28,138 nucleotides of DNA from IMG/VR virus record IMGVR_UViG_3300028173_000046, positions 1-28,138 of that record; one strand, 5' to 3'. The position numbers were made by a program, and so were the translations under genes. The DNA comes from a virus. Within the stretch, counting starts at the first letter, position 1; each line of letters begins with the position of its first letter. The notes beneath the pieces are model-generated. The model did not search any database and had not been told where the DNA came from. It saw only the letters and a list, made by a program, of their open reading frames with translations. Of this stretch, positions 2,547 to 26,046 are shown in pieces.

Positions 2547-2575
2547 TTGACAGTTACGACTTTATAACGTATAGT
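2547..2575 (+). promoter_or_regulatory. Sigma70-type promoter
   Basis: TTGACA at 2547-2552, a 17-base spacer, and TATAGT at 2570-2575. This is a near-perfect vegetative promoter with a perfect -35 and one mismatch in the -10. Transcription should begin near 2582, leaving about 80 bases of leader before the gene at 2664. Confidence 0.85.
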
Positions 2576-2663
2576 GAACACTATGAAGTTAAAAAATTAT
2601 CTTCATTTTGAACTGAGCCACGATGGTTCGGTGTTCTTTAAAAACCAAATAAAGGAGTACGAT

Positions 2664-3113
2664 ATGGAAAAGATTTCGTTTAAGGAAAACGATGGCGGTA
2701 GAGATACTGCAGGATATAAGGGCTATACTGGAGATTGCGTAACAAGAGCAATAGCGATAGCAACTAAAACGCCATACCAAGATGTATATGATTCATTATA
2801 CGAATTAGGTAGAAATTGGGAAGGTCGAAGTAAGATAGCTAAAGCAATTCGGAAAAGCCCATCACCTCGTAACGGATGTCATGTTCCTGTTGCTGAAAAA
2901 TACCTAGAAACATTAGGTTGGGTCAAAGTTAAAAACAAACTGAGACTAGATGATAAGAAGTTTAAGTCTGGTCGATATATTTGTTCTGTACGAAGACATT
3001 ACACAGCAATGATAGACGGAGTGCTTAACGATACTTATGATTGTCAGATGACTAGCGGTATGTACGCAGAAAAGACAATCAAGACAGCATTCCACCATTA
3101 CGAGAAAACATAA
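2664..3113 (+). CDS. Papain-like-fold protein, possible cysteine peptidase
   Basis: 149 residues from ATG 2664, which follows AAAGGAG (2651-2657). The frame is open back to a GTG at 2574, but that GTG lies inside the promoter's -10 box and cannot be on the transcript. The protein matches a phage and bacterial family with NDGGR, then GDCVTRAIAIAT (Cys25 at the start of a helix), RHYTAMIDG (His112) and NDTYD (Asp123/Asp126). That Cys-His-Asp order is what a papain/NlpC-like fold would show. The family has no confirmed activity that I know of. It might process a phage or host protein or act as an inactive fold. Confidence 0.7.
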   Translation: MEKISFKENDGGRDTAGYKGYTGDCVTRAIAIATKTPYQDVYDSLYELGRNWEGRSKIAKAIRKSPSPRNGCHVPVAEKYLETLGWVKVKNKLRLDDKKFKSGRYICSVRRHYTAMIDGVLNDTYDCQMTSGMYAEKTIKTAFHHYEKT

Positions 3114-3160: not shown

Positions 3161-3592
3161 ATGAAAACAAGTTATTTTTATCAAATTCAAAAAGGAGTTA
3201 CAGGTGGGGTATCTATATCTGTGGGAAAGCCAAAGTATGTAGAGATTGACGCTGAGTTTAAACAGCTAGCTCCATCATGGAATTTGTTAAAAGCATTTCA
3301 AGATGACAAGATTGATGAGGCAGGATATGTTGAGAGGTTCAACTATCAATTAAGTAAGATGAATGCAAAGAGTGTTATTGACCATCTGCATTATCTAACA
3401 CACGGAGAAGAGCCAGTATTAATGTGCCACTGTGGAAAGGATAAATTCTGTCATAGACATTTAGTGGCTGAATGGTTAGAAAAAGAAACAGGTCAAAAGA
3501 TTGAAGAATATGGTGTAGGTGTCGTGAATAGAACCAATGGAAGAATAGTTGGTGCAGGAAAGGAAGTGAAAGATATGCTTGACCTTTTATGA
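3161..3592 (+). CDS. DUF488-family protein
   Basis: A 143-residue protein. Its C-terminal third holds MCHCGKDKFCHRHLVAEWL (Cys89, Cys91, Cys97-His98-Arg99), the signature of DUF488, where a CHR motif follows a short cysteine pair. The N-terminal part fits the family's 'SYFYQ...G...SIS' opening and a long helical middle. DUF488 proteins are small cytoplasmic proteins of undefined biochemistry, sometimes found near nucleic-acid modification genes. The ATG follows AGAGGAG. The stop overlaps the next start (ATGA 3589-3592), linking it to the enzyme cassette. Confidence 0.8.
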   Translation: MKTSYFYQIQKGVTGGVSISVGKPKYVEIDAEFKQLAPSWNLLKAFQDDKIDEAGYVERFNYQLSKMNAKSVIDHLHYLTHGEEPVLMCHCGKDKFCHRHLVAEWLEKETGQKIEEYGVGVVNRTNGRIVGAGKEVKDMLDLL

Positions 3593-3969
3593 GAATAGAG
3601 CCTATGACTTTAGACATGGTAAAGAGTGTCTATTTTTTTATACAAGCAGTAGAACTTGAGGATGACGTTTTTATAAAAAGCACAGAAAAAGAAATATCTG
3701 AAAAAGTTAAAGAATCGATAGTTTGTTTTGACGATGGAGAATTGATAGGTGTACTGCTAAAGGTTGGTAGCTATATTGATACTGTTGTTTCAACTAAGGG
3801 TTGTGGGCGCAAGATGATTAAGTCATTAGGTGAAGGATATTACCTAACAAATATTTCTAGTAAAAACACGCCAAGTATTAAGATGTTCAGAAAATTAGGG
3901 TTTGGTCATGTAGGTGATGAAATACTTTGTGGACAGAAAAGAGGGAAGTATGCGGGTTATATTCGATAA
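3589..3969 (+). CDS. GNAT-family acetyltransferase
   Basis: 126 residues with the shape of a small GNAT enzyme, which transfers an acyl group from acyl-CoA to an amine. A central strand (CFDDGELIGVLLKVGSYID) leads to STKGCGRKMIKSL at about residue 68, the position of the pyrophosphate-binding loop and helix. The C-terminus holds NISSKNTPSIKMFRKLGFG, the usual 'N-x-x-S-x-K-x-F-x-K-x-GF' closing motif. It is on the short side. The start is ATGA-coupled to the DUF488 gene. It is the first gene of a cassette with an amidoligase, so its substrate may be a product of that enzyme. Confidence 0.75.
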   Translation: MRIEPMTLDMVKSVYFFIQAVELEDDVFIKSTEKEISEKVKESIVCFDDGELIGVLLKVGSYIDTVVSTKGCGRKMIKSLGEGYYLTNISSKNTPSIKMFRKLGFGHVGDEILCGQKRGKYAGYIR

Positions 3970-4696
3970 GTCAATTATGACAGCCAACGGCATTGCTATT
4001 GTTGACTGGTCAGTAGAAAGACAAGTTGAGATAGCTTGGATGATTAAACATCAGTTCGACTCTTTGCACATAAGAGATATTCTGAAAACGATGCAAGTCT
4101 ATACGACAAAGAAGGATAAGTATTGGGAATGTATATACACAAGCCCAAGGATTACGATTGTTGATGCTTTCGATAGAAGAGAAGGTGTTACAGTGAAAGA
4201 AGCGAAGTTGGTAGAAAACAAAGATATAGCTATTGTGAATTTTTATTGCTGTAATGAGATAAAGCCAACCGTTGATGATTTGAATCGTATTTATGAGTCA
4301 TTGAAAGACATGGGTTTTAAGTGGATTTCGTACGGTGGCAGTATGATGCTTAACTATGAGAAGTTCTTGTGTGATGAAGTTCGTGTGGGCGAGGCATTGC
4401 TAACAGGTTATTCAACAGTTGATGATTGTTATTTTCCTAATATGACCAACCCGTATTCAGTAATTTTAGATGTTATGGCAAGTAGTGAAGATGGTGTTGT
4501 TGTGAAACATGGATTCCTTGAGATAGGTGGATTTACAGATATAGAGGCACGATGTGTTAATACTGATTGTTCTGTATTGATGATTGAAGACTGGCAAAGA
4601 TATTCAGCAGGCTCAAAGATAAAAGTACAGCCTGATTACTTCACGTTGATTAAATTAGCAGACAAAGGATATTTAGAAAATGTTGAAACTATCTAA
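3950..4696 (+). CDS. Unknown cassette protein (248 aa)
   Basis: I do not recognise this protein. ATG 3950 is preferred over an in-frame ATG at 3914 because GAGGGA at 3941-3946 is well placed and the overlap with the GNAT gene falls to 20 bases. The 248-residue product is a mixed alpha/beta soluble protein with scattered cysteines (two adjacent in NFYCCNE, others in ARCVNTDCSV). The segment TVDDLNRIYESLKDMGFKWI looks like a regular helix-strand unit. It lies between GNAT and YkgJ-type genes and overlaps both, which implies a shared pathway. Confidence 0.6.
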   Translation: MRVIFDKSIMTANGIAIVDWSVERQVEIAWMIKHQFDSLHIRDILKTMQVYTTKKDKYWECIYTSPRITIVDAFDRREGVTVKEAKLVENKDIAIVNFYCCNEIKPTVDDLNRIYESLKDMGFKWISYGGSMMLNYEKFLCDEVRVGEALLTGYSTVDDCYFPNMTNPYSVILDVMASSEDGVVVKHGFLEIGGFTDIEARCVNTDCSVLMIEDWQRYSAGSKIKVQPDYFTLIKLADKGYLENVETI

Positions 4697-5102
4697 CGGT
4701 TTAATTAATCACTGTGTCAACTCAGGTTGTGGGTGGAAGTGTTGCGACTTTGGAAGTGAAGGCCATATCATAATGTTGCCTACAGAATATGAAAAGGCAG
4801 GAGATGTTAGCCATATTAATGTGATTGATGATGACTATATGGGTGGCAAGAAAGTAAAGTGTGTAGCCAAAGACAAAAAAACGTGTGACGGAGGGTATAA
4901 ACCAATACAGTGCAGGACATTCCCGTTGTGGGTAAGGTCAGACGAAAGAATTGAGCAAAGTACAAGGTGTCCGTTAAATAGTTCTCAGACTAAAGAGCAT
5001 GAGGCTATTGCTATTAAGATGGTAAATGAATTTGGTGTAAGTGATGAGTTTTTAGATAAAGCGGAGGTCTGTAGGTATGTCGAAAAAGATGCCGATATTT
5101 AA
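4680..5102 (+). CDS. YkgJ-type cysteine-cluster protein
   Basis: 140 residues matching the YkgJ (zinc- or iron-chelating) family. Cys12, Cys17, Cys21 and Cys22 lie in HCVNSGCGWKCC, Cys61 and Cys69 flank a lysine-rich loop, and Cys78 sits in the diagnostic CRTFPLW, with Cys97 in RCPL. The family is thought to bind a metal or Fe-S cluster through these cysteines; some members are linked to protein or small-molecule modification. The start overlaps the preceding gene by 17 bases and the end overlaps the amidoligase by 26 bases, so translation is tightly linked to both. Confidence 0.85.
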   Translation: MLKLSNGLINHCVNSGCGWKCCDFGSEGHIIMLPTEYEKAGDVSHINVIDDDYMGGKKVKCVAKDKKTCDGGYKPIQCRTFPLWVRSDERIEQSTRCPLNSSQTKEHEAIAIKMVNEFGVSDEFLDKAEVCRYVEKDADI

Positions 5103-7104
5103 TAGAACATTCGGCTTTGAGCTTGAGTTTGGAAATGTAAAGAAAGAAGAGGCTGACTTGCCTGTAGGATATAGTTGGTCGCCTGATGAGAGAAGTATTG
5201 TAAATTCAAATTCAAAGAAAGCCACGCCAACAGGTGATTTTGGTGGTGAGTTAAATACCCGCCCACTAAAGCCAAACCTGTCAGATGTTAGAGAAGTTAG
5301 GTCTGTAATAAAAAAATGCCTAAAAGCTGATGGGGTGTTAATGTGGAATACGGGCTTTGACGGTCATATTTACATAGGTGACTTAGAGCTTGATGATTTG
5401 AAAAAAATTTTTGCGTTAGGCTTTTACGTTTCGCCTTTGTTGAATAAGATGTTTAAATTAGGGGAGTGGTTTAATGTGCCACACCTAGTTCCAACACCTA
5501 CGTTTGAATTTTTAGATAAGGTTCAAGATGTTCAAAGTATTGATGGACTAAGGAATGTATTTGCTAATTCTTCAAATGTCGGTCATTTCAGATTCCAGAT
5601 AAATTTAATGTCGTTCTATAAGACTGAAACGCTAGAGTTCAGACTTTTTAATAGCTCAGAGAATTTTAGAGATACGCTAGAGACGATTAAGTTCATGTAC
5701 TCATTCCTTGAATATGCTTTAACTAAAGACATAAAAGATTTTCAAGCAATAAAGACAGAAGAAGACTTCATTAGAGAGTTTGGTATTACTCATGAATTTG
5801 CTGACAAGACTCCCCCTTTAATATTCGCTGAAAGTCATCATGAAGCAACTAGAAATATAGCCAAAGGATTTTCCCCGTCCAGAAAGATAATTAGCGCAAT
5901 CATTAACGACACAGCTGATAAGTTAATCATAGTCAACCCGTTCTATTACCAAACTGAGTTATCGCTGTATAAGGTTAAACATTTAATCGTGTATAACAAT
6001 TCAGAGTTTAATCATGTTGTTTATTTGATTAGCAAAGGTGAGTTGACTATAGACTATGAGAATCACTTTGAAATATTAGGTGAGTATAAAGATGGCACTA
6101 TAGAAACAGAACTAAGTCTGTTCTTTATATTTGCTAGGATTCAGAAGTACGACATGAATACCGAATATGGTATGAATGAATATCTATCTTATGCGAGCAA
6201 GATTAAAGAAAGCCTTGAAAAGATTGGGTCAAATTCAATAGAATTGGTTAGTTTATTAAAAACAGCCGATTATAGATTAGGTACTTTGAGAGATGCAATT
6301 CAACAAGCCAACATGGAGAAGATTGATGTCGTGTTTCAACAGGAATATAACAGTAAAGCTAATTCTGCATTAACTGCTTTAAAGAAGCACACTAACTATG
6401 GGCTAGAATTTGAAAGAACAGAGATGCGGTACGAGAAAGTTAAGTCAAGTCTAAAGAAAGGCATTAAATTATTGATTGTCAGTAAGAATGAATTCTTGCC
6501 ATACGAAAAGATAGCAAAAGATTTAGATGTTACGTTGTACTCTAGTCAGAAAAGTTACCTTGGTGTAAGACAGGTCATGGACGAAGGTTTAAATATCTCC
6601 ATAACAATACCTGATGATGATTTTGAAATAAAGAAGAAGACAAAGATAACAGTTCATGAAGTAATGCCGTCATTGTTTAGCGTGCTACAGGCTAAGTTCG
6701 TCAAGAAGGTAGCCAAGTTCACACAGCCAAAGATTTGCTATACAGTAAACAGTGGAAAAACTATCTTGGGAGCGTTCGGCTTTGACTATTCCAAAGACAA
6801 GGGTTATAGTCTATGGTTATTGAGTGACTTCTGTACGAATAATAACGTACCTATGTTAAGTAAGTTCATCTTGTATGTGATTAGAACACGAGAAGTTAAA
6901 AAGATGATTGAGAGGAAGTTAGTCAACAGAGTATCAAGAGGTTATACGAAAGTTTATACCACAATGCCAGTAAGTATGAAATACAGGGGTGCGTTTAAGA
7001 AAGTCGGTGGAGATGGAAAGATACTTGTTTATGATTTTGCGTTCGGTAGTATTAGGCACATGTCAGAGGCAAAGCAAGAATACTTTAAAAAGGTTAATAA
7101 ATGA
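5077..7104 (+). CDS. Amidoligase with C-terminal GNAT/Mom-like region
   Basis: 675 residues. The first ~215 match the Amidoligase_2 (glutamine-synthetase-fold COOH-NH2 ligase) pattern: GFELEF (Glu15, Glu17), GGELNTRPL (56-64), GHIYIG (96-101) and TLEFRLFN (185-192). Such enzymes use ATP to join a carboxylate to an amine. A long middle (about 250-540) matches nothing I know. The end (about 560-650) has a strand 'LWLLSDFC', a helix after VPMLSKF, and TMPVSMKYRGAF. This resembles the GNAT-derived fold of Mom-type DNA-modifying proteins; I call that tentative. ATG 5077 follows GGAGGT. The stop overlaps the ParB gene (ATGA). Confidence 0.75.
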   Translation: MSKKMPIFNRTFGFELEFGNVKKEEADLPVGYSWSPDERSIVNSNSKKATPTGDFGGELNTRPLKPNLSDVREVRSVIKKCLKADGVLMWNTGFDGHIYIGDLELDDLKKIFALGFYVSPLLNKMFKLGEWFNVPHLVPTPTFEFLDKVQDVQSIDGLRNVFANSSNVGHFRFQINLMSFYKTETLEFRLFNSSENFRDTLETIKFMYSFLEYALTKDIKDFQAIKTEEDFIREFGITHEFADKTPPLIFAESHHEATRNIAKGFSPSRKIISAIINDTADKLIIVNPFYYQTELSLYKVKHLIVYNNSEFNHVVYLISKGELTIDYENHFEILGEYKDGTIETELSLFFIFARIQKYDMNTEYGMNEYLSYASKIKESLEKIGSNSIELVSLLKTADYRLGTLRDAIQQANMEKIDVVFQQEYNSKANSALTALKKHTNYGLEFERTEMRYEKVKSSLKKGIKLLIVSKNEFLPYEKIAKDLDVTLYSSQKSYLGVRQVMDEGLNISITIPDDDFEIKKKTKITVHEVMPSLFSVLQAKFVKKVAKFTQPKICYTVNSGKTILGAFGFDYSKDKGYSLWLLSDFCTNNNVPMLSKFILYVIRTREVKKMIERKLVNRVSRGYTKVYTTMPVSMKYRGAFKKVGGDGKILVYDFAFGSIRHMSEAKQEYFKKVNK

Positions 7105-7811
7105 ATAACAAGTGGAAAGTAAAAGAAGTTGATATTAAGGATATTGAAGGCACAGAGATAAACGCCAACAGTATGACCAAGAAGAATTTCACCAAGCTAT
7201 GCAAGAACATTGAGAAGAGTGGATTATCATCAATGATTGCTTGTTATTTAAGAAAGGATGGTAAGTATGTAATCATAAGTGGTAATCATAGATACAAAGC
7301 TTGTGTTACTCTAGGTTATAGTAAGCTACATATTCTGTATGCTGAAGAAAAAGAATTAAGTAAAGACGAGATAGTAGCATTACAATTAAGCCACAACACT
7401 CTTCATGGTGAAGATGATAAAGGAATACTGAAGCGTTTATTTGATGAGATTGATAATATCGATTGGAAAGAAGTGGCTCATATCTCAGTAGATGATTTAG
7501 CAGTAGAAGATATGTTTAGTGGTTCAATTGTTCCAGTATCTGAACACTATCGAGTAGGGTTAGTTCTATATCGCAAGGATATGGATTTAATAGATGAATT
7601 ATTAGAAATAGTCAAAGAAGAAAAGGATGCCTCAGACATGGTTATCTTGGCAGACGGTGATAAGATAGAAGATGACTTCCTTGATACAATTACTCAAGTA
7701 AAGACTGAGTTTGAGATTAAAAGCGTATCAATAGCATTCGGTAAAATACTTGAATTAGCTAAGGAGGCTTTAAGTACAAAGGTGACAGAAAACGACAAAA
7801 AGGAAAAGTAG
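7101..7811 (+). CDS. ParB/Srx-type domain protein
   Basis: A 236-residue protein. The N-terminal 110 residues carry the ParB-like fold: an opening strand with KEVDIKDIEG, a helix ending in KSGL, then VIISGNHRYKACVTLGY (the family's G-x-H-R at 61-64) and a helix with IVALQLSHN. In ParB the equivalent motif is in the CTP-binding region; related phage proteins act as nucleases or DNA-binding adaptors. The C-terminal half is acidic and helical and I cannot assign it. It sits between the amidoligase (ATGA overlap) and TerS, a typical place for ParB-type proteins in phages with unusual DNA chemistry. Confidence 0.85.
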   Translation: MNNKWKVKEVDIKDIEGTEINANSMTKKNFTKLCKNIEKSGLSSMIACYLRKDGKYVIISGNHRYKACVTLGYSKLHILYAEEKELSKDEIVALQLSHNTLHGEDDKGILKRLFDEIDNIDWKEVAHISVDDLAVEDMFSGSIVPVSEHYRVGLVLYRKDMDLIDELLEIVKEEKDASDMVILADGDKIEDDFLDTITQVKTEFEIKSVSIAFGKILELAKEALSTKVTENDKKEK

Positions 7812-8141
7812 ATGAAATTCTCTAAAGAAAAGACAGTTGAAGTGTTTAAAAAGAAGGGTTGTAACGTATCAGCAACATGTAGTGCGTTGGGTATATCAAG
7901 AAACACTTTTTACAAAGAAAGAAAGAAAAATTCAGATTTCAAACAAGAGTTGATAGATGCTGAAGAGGCTGTTATTGATAATGTAGAAACAAAGCTATTG
8001 TCAAAGATAAATGACGGTGATACAACTTGTATGATTTTCTTCTTAAAGACAAAGGGTAAGAAGCGTGGATATATCGAGAGGCAAGAGGTTGAAATGGATA
8101 TTGACGGCACAATGGACTTGACAGTTCAGTTCATTGAGTAA
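7812..8141 (+). CDS. terS: Terminase small subunit
   Basis: A 109-residue protein that should recognise phage DNA and guide TerL to it. Residues 1-40 form a helix-turn-helix (KGCNVSATCSALGISRNTFY). The remainder is the family's oligomerisation region, with 'DAEEAVIDNVE', then DGDTTCMIFFLKTKGKKRGY and an acidic end. The next gene starts within its last codons, so the two subunits are translationally coupled. It follows the ParB gene directly (start one base after that stop). Confidence 0.85.
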   Translation: MKFSKEKTVEVFKKKGCNVSATCSALGISRNTFYKERKKNSDFKQELIDAEEAVIDNVETKLLSKINDGDTTCMIFFLKTKGKKRGYIERQEVEMDIDGTMDLTVQFIE

Positions 8142-9340: not shown

Positions 9341-10648
9341 ATGGGAATCGAATCAAAACATCCGTATTACACAGAAGCGGCACAACAGTGGTCACGTATT
9401 AGGGATTCATACAAGGGCAGTGATGCTATTAAGAAACAAGGTCAAGCCTATCTACCTAAGCTAAGTGGTCAGGATAAAGACCAGTATGAAGCTTATAAAT
9501 TAAGAGCTATGTATTACAACGGTATTGAGAGAACAGTAAAAGGTTTAATCGGTGCTGTGATGAGAATCGAACCTATTGTTGAAGCCCCTGATAAAGTTAA
9601 AGCTTGGTTAGATGATATTACTGGAACAGGTATAGCATTCAATGATTTTGTTTCTTACTTACTTAGTGAGCAATTACTAATGGGAAGACAAGGAATCTTA
9701 GTTGATAGAAGCGAAGAGCGTCCTTACTTGACAGGTTATTGCACAGAGCAAGTAACCAACTGGATTGATGACGCTGTTGTCCTACAAGAGACATACAGAA
9801 AGATTGACCCTAAAGACCCGTATATGTCTGAGTACGATGTTCAATACAGAGAGCTTACAAAAGACGAAGATGGTAATTACGTTGTTCGTATTTGGAGAGA
9901 TAACAAAGGTTGGGCAGTTTGGCAAGAGATTTACCCTACACAAAGGGGTGATGCGCTAGATGGTATTCCGTTCATTGCTATGAGTGGTGAAGGTTTCAAT
10001 TTCGAGCCAGTAACATCTTCTATGTTAGCTTTAGCAGATACAAGTTTATCTCTATACAGAACATCAGCAGACTTAGAGCATGGTCGTCATTTCACAGCAT
10101 TACCTACGCCGTACGTTACAGGTATTGATGCCGATAGCGAATTAAGAATCGGTTCGGGTGAAGCATGGATTCTACCTGATACTGGAAGTAGCGCAGGCTA
10201 CCTAGAATTTAGTGGTCAAGGTCTTCAGGCTTTAGAAAAGGCTATGGAAGAGAAGCGCTCTATGATGGCAAGTCTAGGCGCGCAGTTATTACAATCTCAG
10301 AAGGCAGGTGTTGAAGCTGCAGACTCAGTTAGACTAAGACAGAATGCTGAAGCATCTACATTGGTTACTACAGTTAAAGCTGTAGAGAGAGCGATTACCC
10401 ATGCCCTAGAGGTTATGGCTGAATGGGATGGTATTCAAGGCGAGATTAAAGTAACACTTAATACTGACTTCGTTGATACCAAGATTGATTCAACAGACAT
10501 GACTTCACTTATGGGTGCTTGGCAGTCGGGTGGTATTAGTCATGAAACATTCTTATGGAATATGAAGAGAGGCGAGATACTTCCACCTGATACTTCTATT
10601 GAAGATGAGAAAAGTCTAATTGATGTTGACCCTATGTTAAATGTCTAA
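9341..10648 (+). CDS. Portal protein, DUF4055 type
   Basis: 435 residues with the DUF4055 portal-like layout. The opening is HPYYTEAAQQWSRIRDSYKG. A helix with YNGIERTVKGLIGAVM follows, then the LLSEQLLMGRQGILVDR segment that is very typical of this family, and a C-terminal LQSQKAGVEAADSVRLRQNA stretch. Portals form the 12-subunit ring through which DNA is pumped. The start follows AAGGAG. The end overlaps the MuF gene by 8 bases. Position between TerL and MuF is the standard order. Confidence 0.9.
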   Translation: MGIESKHPYYTEAAQQWSRIRDSYKGSDAIKKQGQAYLPKLSGQDKDQYEAYKLRAMYYNGIERTVKGLIGAVMRIEPIVEAPDKVKAWLDDITGTGIAFNDFVSYLLSEQLLMGRQGILVDRSEERPYLTGYCTEQVTNWIDDAVVLQETYRKIDPKDPYMSEYDVQYRELTKDEDGNYVVRIWRDNKGWAVWQEIYPTQRGDALDGIPFIAMSGEGFNFEPVTSSMLALADTSLSLYRTSADLEHGRHFTALPTPYVTGIDADSELRIGSGEAWILPDTGSSAGYLEFSGQGLQALEKAMEEKRSMMASLGAQLLQSQKAGVEAADSVRLRQNAEASTLVTTVKAVERAITHALEVMAEWDGIQGEIKVTLNTDFVDTKIDSTDMTSLMGAWQSGGISHETFLWNMKRGEILPPDTSIEDEKSLIDVDPMLNV

Positions 10649-12428
10649 AACCGTAAATGAGAAAGTCAAAGATGAAATAATAGGTCATTCGATTGACCTG
10701 AATCGTCTTGAAACTCAAATGAAGCGTGATGTTATCAAGGAATTGAAAAGCCTTGAGGCAGACTTGATTGAGCAGTTACAAAAGTCTAATATCTTGAATG
10801 GTAAGCCCATGACAAGGTTTAAACAGAAGCGTTTGCAAGTTCTACTTAAACAAACCAAAGAAACAATTCAAACAGTCTATAAGAAAGCTAAAGACTCTCT
10901 TACCGATGACTTAATTAAAGTAGCAGGCATATCTGAAGCGCAGACAATAAGCGCTCTTAATACGTCAATAAATGCAGAATTGCTCTCTACAGGTTTAAGT
11001 AAGCAAGCTCTAAAGGCGATAGCATCTCAATCTCTAATTGAAGGCGCTCCATCTAAGGAGTGGTGGTCAAGACGAGGCACAGCATTTAAAGATAAGTTCT
11101 CAGATACAGTGAGAAAAGGAATGTTGGCAGGTGATACAACTGATAGTGTGGTTAGGTCACTACGAGGCACAAGAGCTTTAAGATATAAAGACGGTGTACT
11201 TAACGGCAACTATAGAAGCGCCGAGGCATTAGTAAGAACCAGTATTCAAACAGTAGCCAATGAAGCGAGAATAGAAACATATCGCGAGAATGATGACTTG
11301 ATTAAAGGTATTGAATGGTCAGCAACATTTGACAGTAGGACTTCTGAAATTTGCGCATCACTAGATGGCGCTCAGTGGGATTTGGATTACAATCCTATAG
11401 GTGGAAGTGGCGAACCCTTTCCTGGCTTTATTGCTCATTGGAATTGTCGCTCAACTACTGTAGCTATTGTTAAAAGCTGGAAAGAGTTAGGTGCTAAAGG
11501 AAAGTTCCAAGAAATTCCTAAAAGTACCAAAGCTTCTATGGATGGTCAAGTATCAGGAAAGAAGAATTACGAAGGTTGGCTTAAAGGGAAAGACAAGAAA
11601 ACCCAAGAAGAAGTATTGGGAGTCGGTAAACGTAAACTATGGAAAGAGGGCAAGCTAGGCTTTAGTGATTTAGTTAGTGGCAGTGGAAAACCTTTGACAC
11701 TTGAACAGTTACAAAGTAAAGTTGGAATTAAGACTGCAAAAGGTAGAAGCCCTATAACAATAGAAGGTTTCATAGCTCAGAATAAATCTGCAAAAAAGTT
11801 GAGGGATATTGAAAAAGGTTCTGCTGACTTGAACATGGGTAGTAATGGTGATGAAGTTCTAAATAAGTTGCAAGAGTCAAGAGGTTTTACAGGCTTGCCA
11901 AAAGTTGTATCTGAAAAGGAATTTAATAAGACACAAGGCTATATATGGGAAGGAGTTGATACAAGCCAAGGTAAAGGCAAGAAATCCGATATATTTTATA
12001 GGGGAGAAAGTAAGCTAAGCCATAAAGAGCAGTTTTTAACAGGCGAGTATAGAACGGGTAGTGGTGTCTTTGGTAATGGAACGTATGGTCACCCGCAATA
12101 TGATTATGCGATTGGCTATGCGAATTTTGAAAAAGCAAACATGATAACAATGAAGTTGGCAAAAGATGCTAAGGTTGCAGATACATTTGACATCCTTAAA
12201 GAAGCGAGAAAGATATACAAGCTTCAAAAAGAAACCGCTATTGTTAACGAGGGATTAATAGCCGCAGGAAAGATGACAGTAAAGGAGTCCGAGAATATTC
12301 TTAAACACTTGCATTCAATGCAAGACCCAGGAAGAATTGCAACAATGTTAGGCTATGATGCTATATACGTTGATACTGTGGGCGAGATAATTGTTCTAAA
12401 TAGGTCTAAATTGGTGGTGTTAAAATGA
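10641..12428 (+). CDS. MuF-type head protein fused to an ADP-ribosyltransferase-like domain
   Basis: 595 residues. Residues about 150-280 are a MuF head-morphogenesis domain, with ALVRTSIQTVANEAR, TFDSRTSEICASLDGAQW and GFIAHWNCRSTT. After a linker, residues about 440-595 look like an ADP-ribosyltransferase. FYRGE holds Arg454, GVFGNGTYG (475-483) matches the NAD-binding glycine loop followed by AIGYAN, and a final strand GEIIVLNRSKLVV carries Glu582. The R...G-x-G-x-Y...E order matches phage-borne MuF-ART proteins. Such domains are thought to enter the host with DNA or to decorate head-bound targets. The catalytic assignment is by pattern only. Confidence 0.85.
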   Translation: MSKTVNEKVKDEIIGHSIDLNRLETQMKRDVIKELKSLEADLIEQLQKSNILNGKPMTRFKQKRLQVLLKQTKETIQTVYKKAKDSLTDDLIKVAGISEAQTISALNTSINAELLSTGLSKQALKAIASQSLIEGAPSKEWWSRRGTAFKDKFSDTVRKGMLAGDTTDSVVRSLRGTRALRYKDGVLNGNYRSAEALVRTSIQTVANEARIETYRENDDLIKGIEWSATFDSRTSEICASLDGAQWDLDYNPIGGSGEPFPGFIAHWNCRSTTVAIVKSWKELGAKGKFQEIPKSTKASMDGQVSGKKNYEGWLKGKDKKTQEEVLGVGKRKLWKEGKLGFSDLVSGSGKPLTLEQLQSKVGIKTAKGRSPITIEGFIAQNKSAKKLRDIEKGSADLNMGSNGDEVLNKLQESRGFTGLPKVVSEKEFNKTQGYIWEGVDTSQGKGKKSDIFYRGESKLSHKEQFLTGEYRTGSGVFGNGTYGHPQYDYAIGYANFEKANMITMKLAKDAKVADTFDILKEARKIYKLQKETAIVNEGLIAAGKMTVKESENILKHLHSMQDPGRIATMLGYDAIYVDTVGEIIVLNRSKLVVLK

Positions 12429-24222: not shown

Positions 24223-26046
24223 ATGGCTATCAGAGCGACAATTACAGTTGTTCGGGCATCAGCAGAACCTACTTATGTGGCGCTATCTGCTAGTACGACT
24301 AATGTAAACTTAGAAGCAATAGCTACACTTAACTATGATTATAAGAATCAATACTTTTACGATACATCAACTCTAAGTGAAGTACAGTTTGTATTAGTTG
24401 AAAAGAATTTATCTGAAACCCTGACTATTGATGAAACAGTCGGTTTGGATTACAGTAAACCTAACGTAGAAACACTGGCATTAGTTGAGACGTTTGTTAA
24501 AGCGGTCACATTCAACAGGTCGTTTACAGATGCCTTTACATTGGACGACCTAAGTCAGATAGACAAAGACTACTTTGGTGCTAAAGGCAATGTAGCGTTT
24601 ATGACTGATATTATCGGTCTTGACCAAGAAAAGGTATTATCTGACAGCTACACTGTAGCCGATGTAGTCACTATTGCTGTTAATTACATAAGACCATACG
24701 CTGACAGCTACACATTGGCTGATGAATCAAGTTTCACGTTTGTTAAGAATGTGGAAGATGCTATCACTTTAGACGATACATCACTAATCAATAAAGACTT
24801 TGATAATCAGAGTCAAAACACATTTGGTTTTACTGATTTACTAGGTAACGATTTTGGTAAAGTATTAGTAGAGAATATATCGCACTTGGATGAAGTATCT
24901 ATCCTTCAGGGCTTAAACAAGTCTGATTCTACCACTTTATCAGATACATACGAAAGAGAGCTAAATAAGGCAATATCGGACGCATTTACACTAGATGACA
25001 GTGCTTTAATTGACAAAGACTACTTTGGAGATAAAGGAAACGTCTTAGGCTTTAGTGATGTGCTTAGTTATGATGCAAGTAAAGAATTAACAGACGGAAT
25101 AGCATTAGTTGAATTAGTAGGGTTTGTGTTAAATCACCCTGTAGAAGATTCGTTCACAATTAGCGATGAAAGCATACTTCATGCTGCTCTAGGTCGCACA
25201 GAAACTATAGGAATTTCAGAGTCTTACATAAGAAGCATTATTAAGAACCTTACTGATGGTTTAGCGTTAGACGATACAACTCTAGTAAACAAAGATATCG
25301 ACTCAACCAAGGGCAATATTATTACCTTTGGTGATGTTGTTGATATTGCGTTACAAAAAGTGAGAGAAATTGCTGATAGCTACACCTTTACAGATGAATC
25401 AAATAGACAAATAGACAAAGGTATCGCTGAGAGTTTAGTATTTAGTGAATTGGTTGATATAGCGACTAACTATAACAAAGCAATATCAGATACATTTGTT
25501 TTAGATGATAGCGCCTTAGTAGATAAAGATTACTTCGGGAATAAGGGGAATGTTGTCGGGCTTAGTGAAGTTGTATCACAATCATTAGGCAAAGAGATAA
25601 CAGACAGCACCTCGGTATCAGATGTTTATGATGTGTTGATGACTAAGATTCTTGTAGAGTCACTTACTTTAACCGAAACAATAGAATCAGCACTCAACAA
25701 GACACTGACTGATACGCTAACCCTGACAGACGGAGCTAGTATAGATTTTGCTTCAGGTGAAATTAGTTACGCTATAAATACATTTACACTAAACAATTTC
25801 TTGCTAAATGGTGGTATAGGAGAGGCAGAAAATTTGCTGGATTCATCTACACTTATTGATGTTTATGGTTTACAATTAGTAAAAACTTTATCTGACGGTT
25901 TTACGTTAGATGATTCCGCCTTAATTGACAAAGATTACTTTGGAGATAAGGGCAATATAGTAGGGGTTTCAGACCAAGTTACCGTAGATTATTATTACGG
26001 TGGGTTGTTAGGACAAAGACCTTTAAATACAATGTCATTTAACTAG
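24223..26046 (+). CDS. Repeat-rich tail protein (607 aa)
   Basis: 607 residues made largely of divergent repeats. Six copies of a block like FTLDDSALIDKDYFGDKGN occur near codons for 24535, 24760, 24985, 25260, 25495 and 25900, about 215-405 bases apart, with shorter units such as DSYTLADES between them. Composition is rich in Asp, Ser, Thr and Leu, with no cysteine pattern. The architecture suggests an elongated beta fibre or a surface-binding stalk. Located after the BppU-N-like gene, it is probably distal on the tail. Confidence 0.75.
   Translation: MAIRATITVVRASAEPTYVALSASTTNVNLEAIATLNYDYKNQYFYDTSTLSEVQFVLVEKNLSETLTIDETVGLDYSKPNVETLALVETFVKAVTFNRSFTDAFTLDDLSQIDKDYFGAKGNVAFMTDIIGLDQEKVLSDSYTVADVVTIAVNYIRPYADSYTLADESSFTFVKNVEDAITLDDTSLINKDFDNQSQNTFGFTDLLGNDFGKVLVENISHLDEVSILQGLNKSDSTTLSDTYERELNKAISDAFTLDDSALIDKDYFGDKGNVLGFSDVLSYDASKELTDGIALVELVGFVLNHPVEDSFTISDESILHAALGRTETIGISESYIRSIIKNLTDGLALDDTTLVNKDIDSTKGNIITFGDVVDIALQKVREIADSYTFTDESNRQIDKGIAESLVFSELVDIATNYNKAISDTFVLDDSALVDKDYFGNKGNVVGLSEVVSQSLGKEITDSTSVSDVYDVLMTKILVESLTLTETIESALNKTLTDTLTLTDGASIDFASGEISYAINTFTLNNFLLNGGIGEAENLLDSSTLIDVYGLQLVKTLSDGFTLDDSALIDKDYFGDKGNIVGVSDQVTVDYYYGGLLGQRPLNTMSFN
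24523..25962 (+). repeat. Six diverged direct repeats in the 607-aa gene
   Basis: The block encoding 'DxFTLDDxxxIDKDYFGxKGN' recurs six times (starting near 24523, 24754, 24971, 25251, 25487 and 25890). The third and sixth are most alike, and the second and fourth most diverged. Spacing is not constant, so units have been lost or added. Confidence 0.75.

Follow-up and report, generated by a model that had tools for sequence, protein, structure and literature searches.

The 28,138-base virus record IMGVR_UViG_3300028173_000046, which makes up the window in full (the record may itself be a fragment), carries a cassette of six overlapping plus-strand genes at positions 3161-7811, directly ahead of its DNA-packaging genes. 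We propose that this cassette is a modular phage DNA hypermodification system that attaches an amino-acid-derived group via an amide bond, a reading to which we assign a probability of about 0.6. In favor of it, amidoligase, Dam-like and GNAT/Mom-like domains reside within a single chain, and the trio of a DUF488 protein, this three-domain enzyme and a ParB-like protein is found in 37-38 of 38 loci. An original prediction, made from the letters of the window, had described five of the genes as an amidoligase cassette, possibly an undescribed modification system, that might attach an amide-linked group to phage DNA, a protein or a small molecule. That idea, and DNA as one of its candidate targets, gains weight from the Dam-like and GNAT/Mom-like domains of the same chain, from the constant ParB-like partner and from the precedent of the CmoX/CmoY system considered below.

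The three-domain enzyme, 675 residues long, is encoded at 5077-7104. It had been described simply as an amidoligase; an amidoligase domain is present, but Pfam and structure matches divide the protein (model pLDDT 84) into three domains, Amidoligase_2, DAM-like-phage2 and GNAT-phage-like, the first and last of which are common to all 17 aligned members. The N-terminal domain (residues 3-240; 5083-5796) matches Amidoligase_2 (PF12224) with 23.2 bits against a cut-off of 22 in the window and in 17/17 relatives, and its structure matches YbdK, plant glutamate-cysteine ligase and glutamine synthetase (GS) with Z scores of about 10. It is thus, by both profile and fold, a GS-fold amidoligase, and its sequence predicts ATP-dependent amide formation; the candidate catalytic positions E15, E17, E58, H97 and R189 are invariant in 17 sequences.

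The middle domain (residues 263-492; 5863-6552; PF22556, E 1.5e-18) has the fold of E. coli Dam, which it matches with Z 10.2 over 186 residues, and it aligns with small Dam-like proteins (hhalign 96.3%, E 1.7e-9). It carries neither the S-adenosylmethionine (SAM) motif I nor the (D/N)PP(Y/F) motif (DPPY), in place of which stand NPFYYQTE and QQEYN; at these sites a profile alignment of the small versions gives CSGNF (versus NPFYYQT) and FPPTY or FPPF (versus QQEYN). Because both motif positions are substituted, methyl transfer by the 675-residue protein is unlikely and we do not regard it as an active methyltransferase; base or DNA binding is the probable role of this domain. The C-terminal domain (residues 518-660; 6628-7056; PF22559, E 4e-23) bears the signature SDFxxN..LSK..PVSMKYRG, and the first-ranked match of residues 518-658 in the PDB, level with other GNATs, is Mom of phage Mu (8bv8; Z 11.2 over 134 residues).

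To place the cassette among its relatives, drawn from viral and genome contigs, we counted genes over 38 loci with a full three-domain protein and enough flanking sequence. These are counts of contigs rather than of independent lineages, because some loci encode near-identical or identical proteins (L067 and L087; L056 and L088). Rare co-occurrence, which would have spoken against a system, was not seen: relatives of 28-88% identity keep these genes intact and side by side, more than chance would give, and the genes travel together in many phage backbones. A ParB-like gene follows the three-domain gene in 38/38 loci and a DUF488 gene precedes it in 37/38, so that the core is DUF488, the three-domain enzyme and the ParB-like protein and not the five genes first proposed. 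The GNAT (19 loci), the pyridoxal phosphate (PLP) enzyme (21) and the cysteine-cluster protein (10) make up one of several exchangeable side arms, which elsewhere include an opine dehydrogenase (14 loci; PF02317, E 1e-26 to 3e-31) and a D-Ala-D-Ala-ligase-like ATP-grasp enzyme (8 loci; PF07478 Dala_Dala_lig_C, E 1e-11 to 6e-22). The PLP enzyme and the opine dehydrogenase are mutually exclusive in the 38 loci, the latter taking the place of the former, and the side-arm genes for the PLP enzyme, opine dehydrogenase and ATP-grasp enzyme are all of amino-acid chemistry. On a tree, the PLP arm appears on several deep branches, about one replacement accounts for the opine arm, and about six changes are needed to explain the ATP-grasp gene; multiple independent PLP-to-opine swaps were considered and found no support in this tree.

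By comparison, cultured phages seldom encode a related DUF488 protein (79 records of 50,697), and no full-length cultured copy with at least 80% query coverage was found in those 50,697 phage records or in 72,556 plasmids. Among the 194 genomes in the class to which G001 belongs, one gave a match, a count that is uninformative on host range. Additional genes were observed at individual loci. In L012 (3701-5389), the cassette is immediately preceded by two genes, one of the PAPS-reductase family (E 8e-23) and one that is radical-SAM/SPL-like; in L018 (10046-10780) and L015 (3324-4055), a gene for a 244-residue protein lies between those for the three-domain enzyme and the ParB-like protein. A C5-methyltransferase-like assignment of this last gene found no support in Pfam and was dropped.

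The 248-residue protein encoded at 3950-4696, for which no function had been suggested, can now be given a fold. Its AlphaFold2 model (pLDDT 93) matches D-threo-3-hydroxyaspartate dehydratase, D-Ser dehydratase and alanine racemases (Foldseek E 3e-8) and corresponds to the fold-type III PLP architecture of barrel plus beta domain over 244 of 248 residues (VIA Z 16.7). The sequence pattern is likewise that of alanine and ornithine racemases, with an early Lys after a strand and RxGExxLxG. Among 16 family sequences 19 positions are invariant, including K33 (codon 4046-4048, directly after strand 27-32), S127, G129, G130 and S131 of an SxGGS motif, and R145, G147 and E148 of an RxGE motif. Seven of the 16 members, the longer relatives, match the profile hidden Markov model (HMM) of the ornithine racemase Orr (best E 1.2e-6), and five match the D-serine dehydratase C-terminal domain (best E 4e-5). 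Because K33 and the positions of the SxGGS and RxGE regions are invariant, the model-based assignment of this protein as a PLP enzyme with a shortened barrel, of the racemase / D-Ser dehydratase / D-Thr aldolase superfamily, is well supported. Note that it shares fold, Lys and PLP-loop pattern with ornithine and alanine racemases and D-Ser dehydratase but is about 120 residues shorter; membership of Orr itself (NF040742) was rejected, as the best score was 27.8 bits against a curated cut-off of 480, a likeness at the level of the superfamily only.

The remaining cassette genes are small. The five overlapping open reading frames (ORFs) of the original prediction were recovered, as were all of the motifs quoted there, but the chain does not start at the GNAT gene: it is headed by a DUF488 ORF (3161-3592; 143 residues) that overlaps the GNAT start. 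The product of this ORF belongs to the DUF488-N3a family (PF22751, E 8e-18; 65.2 bits against a cut-off of 27) and has a conserved CHC...FCHRH site in the alignment. A PADLOC search returned no known defence system, matching only DUF488 (PDC-M45C, E 1e-9) and, weakly, the ParB-like protein. The GNAT call (3589-3969; 126 residues) is weak in the window protein (FR47, E 0.015) but secure in relatives (Acetyltransf_1, E 2.6e-8 and 5.4e-7). Similarly, of the YkgJ label given to the 140-residue protein at 4680-5102, the eight-cysteine pattern stands, C12, C17, C21, C22, C61, C69, C78 and C97 being invariant in three aligned sequences, but neither Pfam nor NCBIfam gives a YkgJ match (PF03692, CxxCxxCC) for the window copy; hhalign to a single YkgJ protein gave 1.4%, and one relative weakly matches DUF3109 (E 0.004). 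In loci L014 and L022 the GNAT and cysteine-cluster proteins are fused.

The last cassette gene (7101-7811) encodes a 236-residue protein that strongly matches phrog_7405 (E 1e-55) and ParB-like PHROGs, and also matches phrog_498, 'DNA methyltransferase' (E 2e-12). Its ParB_N score of 21.3 bits falls under the cut-off of 26.3, hence we call it ParB-like only, and on the same score a partition role was set aside (a partition ATPase was not looked for). In Microbacterium phage Pickles13, a Mom homologue adjoins a ParB-like gene, in keeping with DNA as the target. The gene for the terminase small subunit (TerS; 7812-8141; phrog_309, E 2e-14) starts right after the ParB-like ORF, as had been stated, and marks the position of the cassette from outside it.

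A smaller version that lacks the amidoligase is also found. Gordonia phage Sting (gp28-29) and Mycobacterium phage Megabear (gp70-71) encode a Dam-like plus GNAT-like protein followed by a ParB-like protein; such pairs, some with DUF488, occur in the viral contigs L098, L099, L101 and L115, and comparable ones in a Salmonella plasmid-borne prophage and a Peribacillus phage-plasmid. In Faecalibacterium phage FP_Brigit, a DUF488-like stretch, a protein of about 480 residues and ParB stand immediately before the terminase. Because the smaller version nests within the full one, these loci suggest that a DNA-directed core came first and may later have been extended by the amidoligase and amino-acid chemistry. 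A terminase gene lies at most 2.5 kb downstream in 34 of 35 full loci and in only 8 of 16 small ones; locus L006 differs in gene order, the set being located after a distant terminase large subunit (TerL) gene. As a separate observation, the ParB-like gene that follows the small Dam-like plus GNAT-like gene on a Peribacillus plasmid (L134, 5260-6191) is seemingly split into two annotated ORFs.

What the analysis establishes is the domain content and folds of the proteins, the association of their genes, and which motifs are conserved or lost. That DNA is the target is our inference, as are the base, the individual substrates, the chemistry, the sequence of steps and the protective role. In the DNA hypermodification system that we propose, the PLP enzyme would racemise or otherwise convert an amino acid into a building block, the amine of which the GNAT would acylate; in other phages an opine dehydrogenase and/or the D-Ala-D-Ala-ligase-like ATP-grasp enzyme would do the equivalent job. 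The products of both main side arms would be amino acids whose amine is blocked, as N-acyl or opine, and whose carboxylate is free. Such products would suit the ATP-dependent formation of an amide with an amine on DNA that the Dam-like and GNAT/Mom-like domains hold in place. The degenerate Dam-like domain would bind DNA and present a base, probably adenine, the GNAT/Mom-like domain would place or accept the acyl group, and the GS-fold amidoligase would form the amide bond with ATP, joining the building block to the phage genome. The ParB-like protein may load or target the 675-residue enzyme on DNA, and DUF488 would perform a conserved step. Because the genes sit just before the terminase, modification would precede packaging and would probably protect against host nucleases. 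More tentatively, a single Amidoligase-Dam-like-Mom-like polypeptide might couple an amino acid or opine, set by the swappable genes, to adenine by an amide, as an adenine counterpart of the cytosine-directed CmoX/CmoY built from unrelated enzymes.

Several points weigh against this proposal. The SAM and DPPY motifs are gone from the Dam-like domain, and for that reason the identity of the base is a guess. The match to Mom is purely structural and tied with those to other GNATs (Z 10.5, within one unit); homology to Mom by sequence was rejected, as hhalign comparison with 12 Mom proteins gave probabilities of 14% and 5%, which are not significant. In the tree, about one replacement underlies the mutual exclusion of the PLP enzyme and the opine dehydrogenase, and the constant place ahead of the terminase might in part be inherited, through common descent of this part of the genome. 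Moreover, an amidoligase domain alone does not imply DNA, because many phage amidoligases match in that domain only.

An alternative is that the target is a protein (host RNA polymerase, the ribosome, a cell-surface component or a virion protein), to which the amidoligase would add an amino-acid-like group, the Dam-like and ParB-like parts serving only to bring it to DNA. Phage GNATs that acylate host proteins are known, and Iyer et al. (2009) are reported to have proposed that GS-fold amidoligases modify proteins and make novel metabolites. We nevertheless consider a protein target unlikely, since the Dam-like domain is fused in every full copy, the smaller version consists of just the Dam-like, GNAT-like and ParB parts, and the only conserved protein partners are the ParB-like protein and DUF488. 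Synthesis of a diffusible amino-acid, opine or dipeptide-like molecule for signalling or superinfection exclusion, with the Dam-like part as a relic, would suit the racemase-like, opine dehydrogenase and D-Ala-D-Ala-ligase-like enzymes, which are typical of metabolite synthesis, and the loss of catalytic motifs from the Dam-like domain; the constancy of the Dam-like and GNAT-like fusion and of its ParB-like partner, and the position ahead of the terminase, make it quite improbable. Finally, although relatives of DUF488 are reportedly predicted DNA-end processors and 34 of 35 full loci directly precede the terminase, it is very improbable that the core trio serves to process genome ends or the site where packaging starts, instead of modifying bases throughout the genome, since the amino-acid biosynthetic side arms would be superfluous, half of the small versions lie away from the terminase and the L006 cassette is located after TerL.

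Elsewhere in the window, the early region contains a paralogous pair of winged-helix genes near each other (48-260 and 1078-1299; HTH_39, first copy E 7e-14). Just 5' of the cassette (2574-3113) lies a gene for a 179-residue phrog_3754 protein (GDCVTRAIAIAT...) that by eye is possibly papain-like. A MuF-type head protein (10641-12428) has a C-terminal extension (residues ~420-595; FYRGESK...GVFGNGTYG...) that looks ADP-ribosyltransferase-like by eye, a likeness that Pfam and PDB sequence searches did not support. A tail-region protein (24223-26046) contains many diverged repeats of the DSFTLDDSALIDKDYFG type.

If our proposal is correct, the cassette would represent a second route, of independent origin, by which phages acquire amide-linked bases in their DNA. 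The attached group would vary by phage with the building-block enzyme carried (PLP enzyme, opine dehydrogenase or ATP-grasp), which predicts an unusual nucleoside whose mass shifts with the side-arm swap. It would account for a viral metagenome protein labelled only 'amidoligase enzyme', and would offer new enzymes for DNA labelling; for the viruses themselves, it would be a form of genome disguise not seen before. The cultured Gordonia and Mycobacterium phages with smaller relatives make the core directly testable.

With respect to novelty, a search of the available literature found no paper that joins these domains with the amidoligase, PLP, opine, ATP-grasp and DUF488 genes, and an earlier bioinformatic description is possible. 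'Undescribed' is only partly safe, because Pfam already names DAM-like-phage1/2 (PF22555/PF22556), GNAT-phage-like (PF22559), which are the same domains, and DUF488-N3a. Phage 'amidoligase enzymes' of Amidoligase_2 (PF12224) share the N-terminal domain, most of them matching over that domain only; A0A8S5SJK3, a viral protein that matches over the full length, has 'Amidoligase enzyme' as its sole annotation. Mom of phage Mu shares the GNAT fold and is the top structural match of the C-terminal domain, but stands alone, with neither amidoligase nor Dam-like fusion, and has no significant profile similarity to the cassette domain.

The closest chemically proven system is CmoA-CmoX-CmoY of Synechococcus phage S-B43, in which CmoY amidates DNA 5-carboxymethylcytosine with glycine, and which proves that amide-linked amino acids occur on phage DNA (PMC12783734). 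As we propose for the cassette, it combines an ATP-dependent ligase, an amide-linked amino-acid group and frequent ParBc neighbours, many such contigs carrying ParBc genes, and its authors report that a preliminary search identified no adenine N6-carboxymethyltransferases (PMC12783734). Its product was shown by liquid chromatography-mass spectrometry (PMC12783734), whereas the cassette described here is known from genes and models. The cassette does not belong to that system: its ligase is GS-fold, and its proteins gave no Pfam match of the CmoX/CmoY kinds (CmoA was not searched for window-wide). The domains are known from Pfam and a related kind of system from chemistry, but the enzymes differ: CmoX is a cytosine C5 enzyme that uses carboxy-SAM and CmoY is asparagine-synthetase-like (PMC12783734), whereas here a GS-fold ligase is fused to Dam-like and GNAT/Mom-like domains and accompanied by PLP, opine or ATP-grasp side arms.

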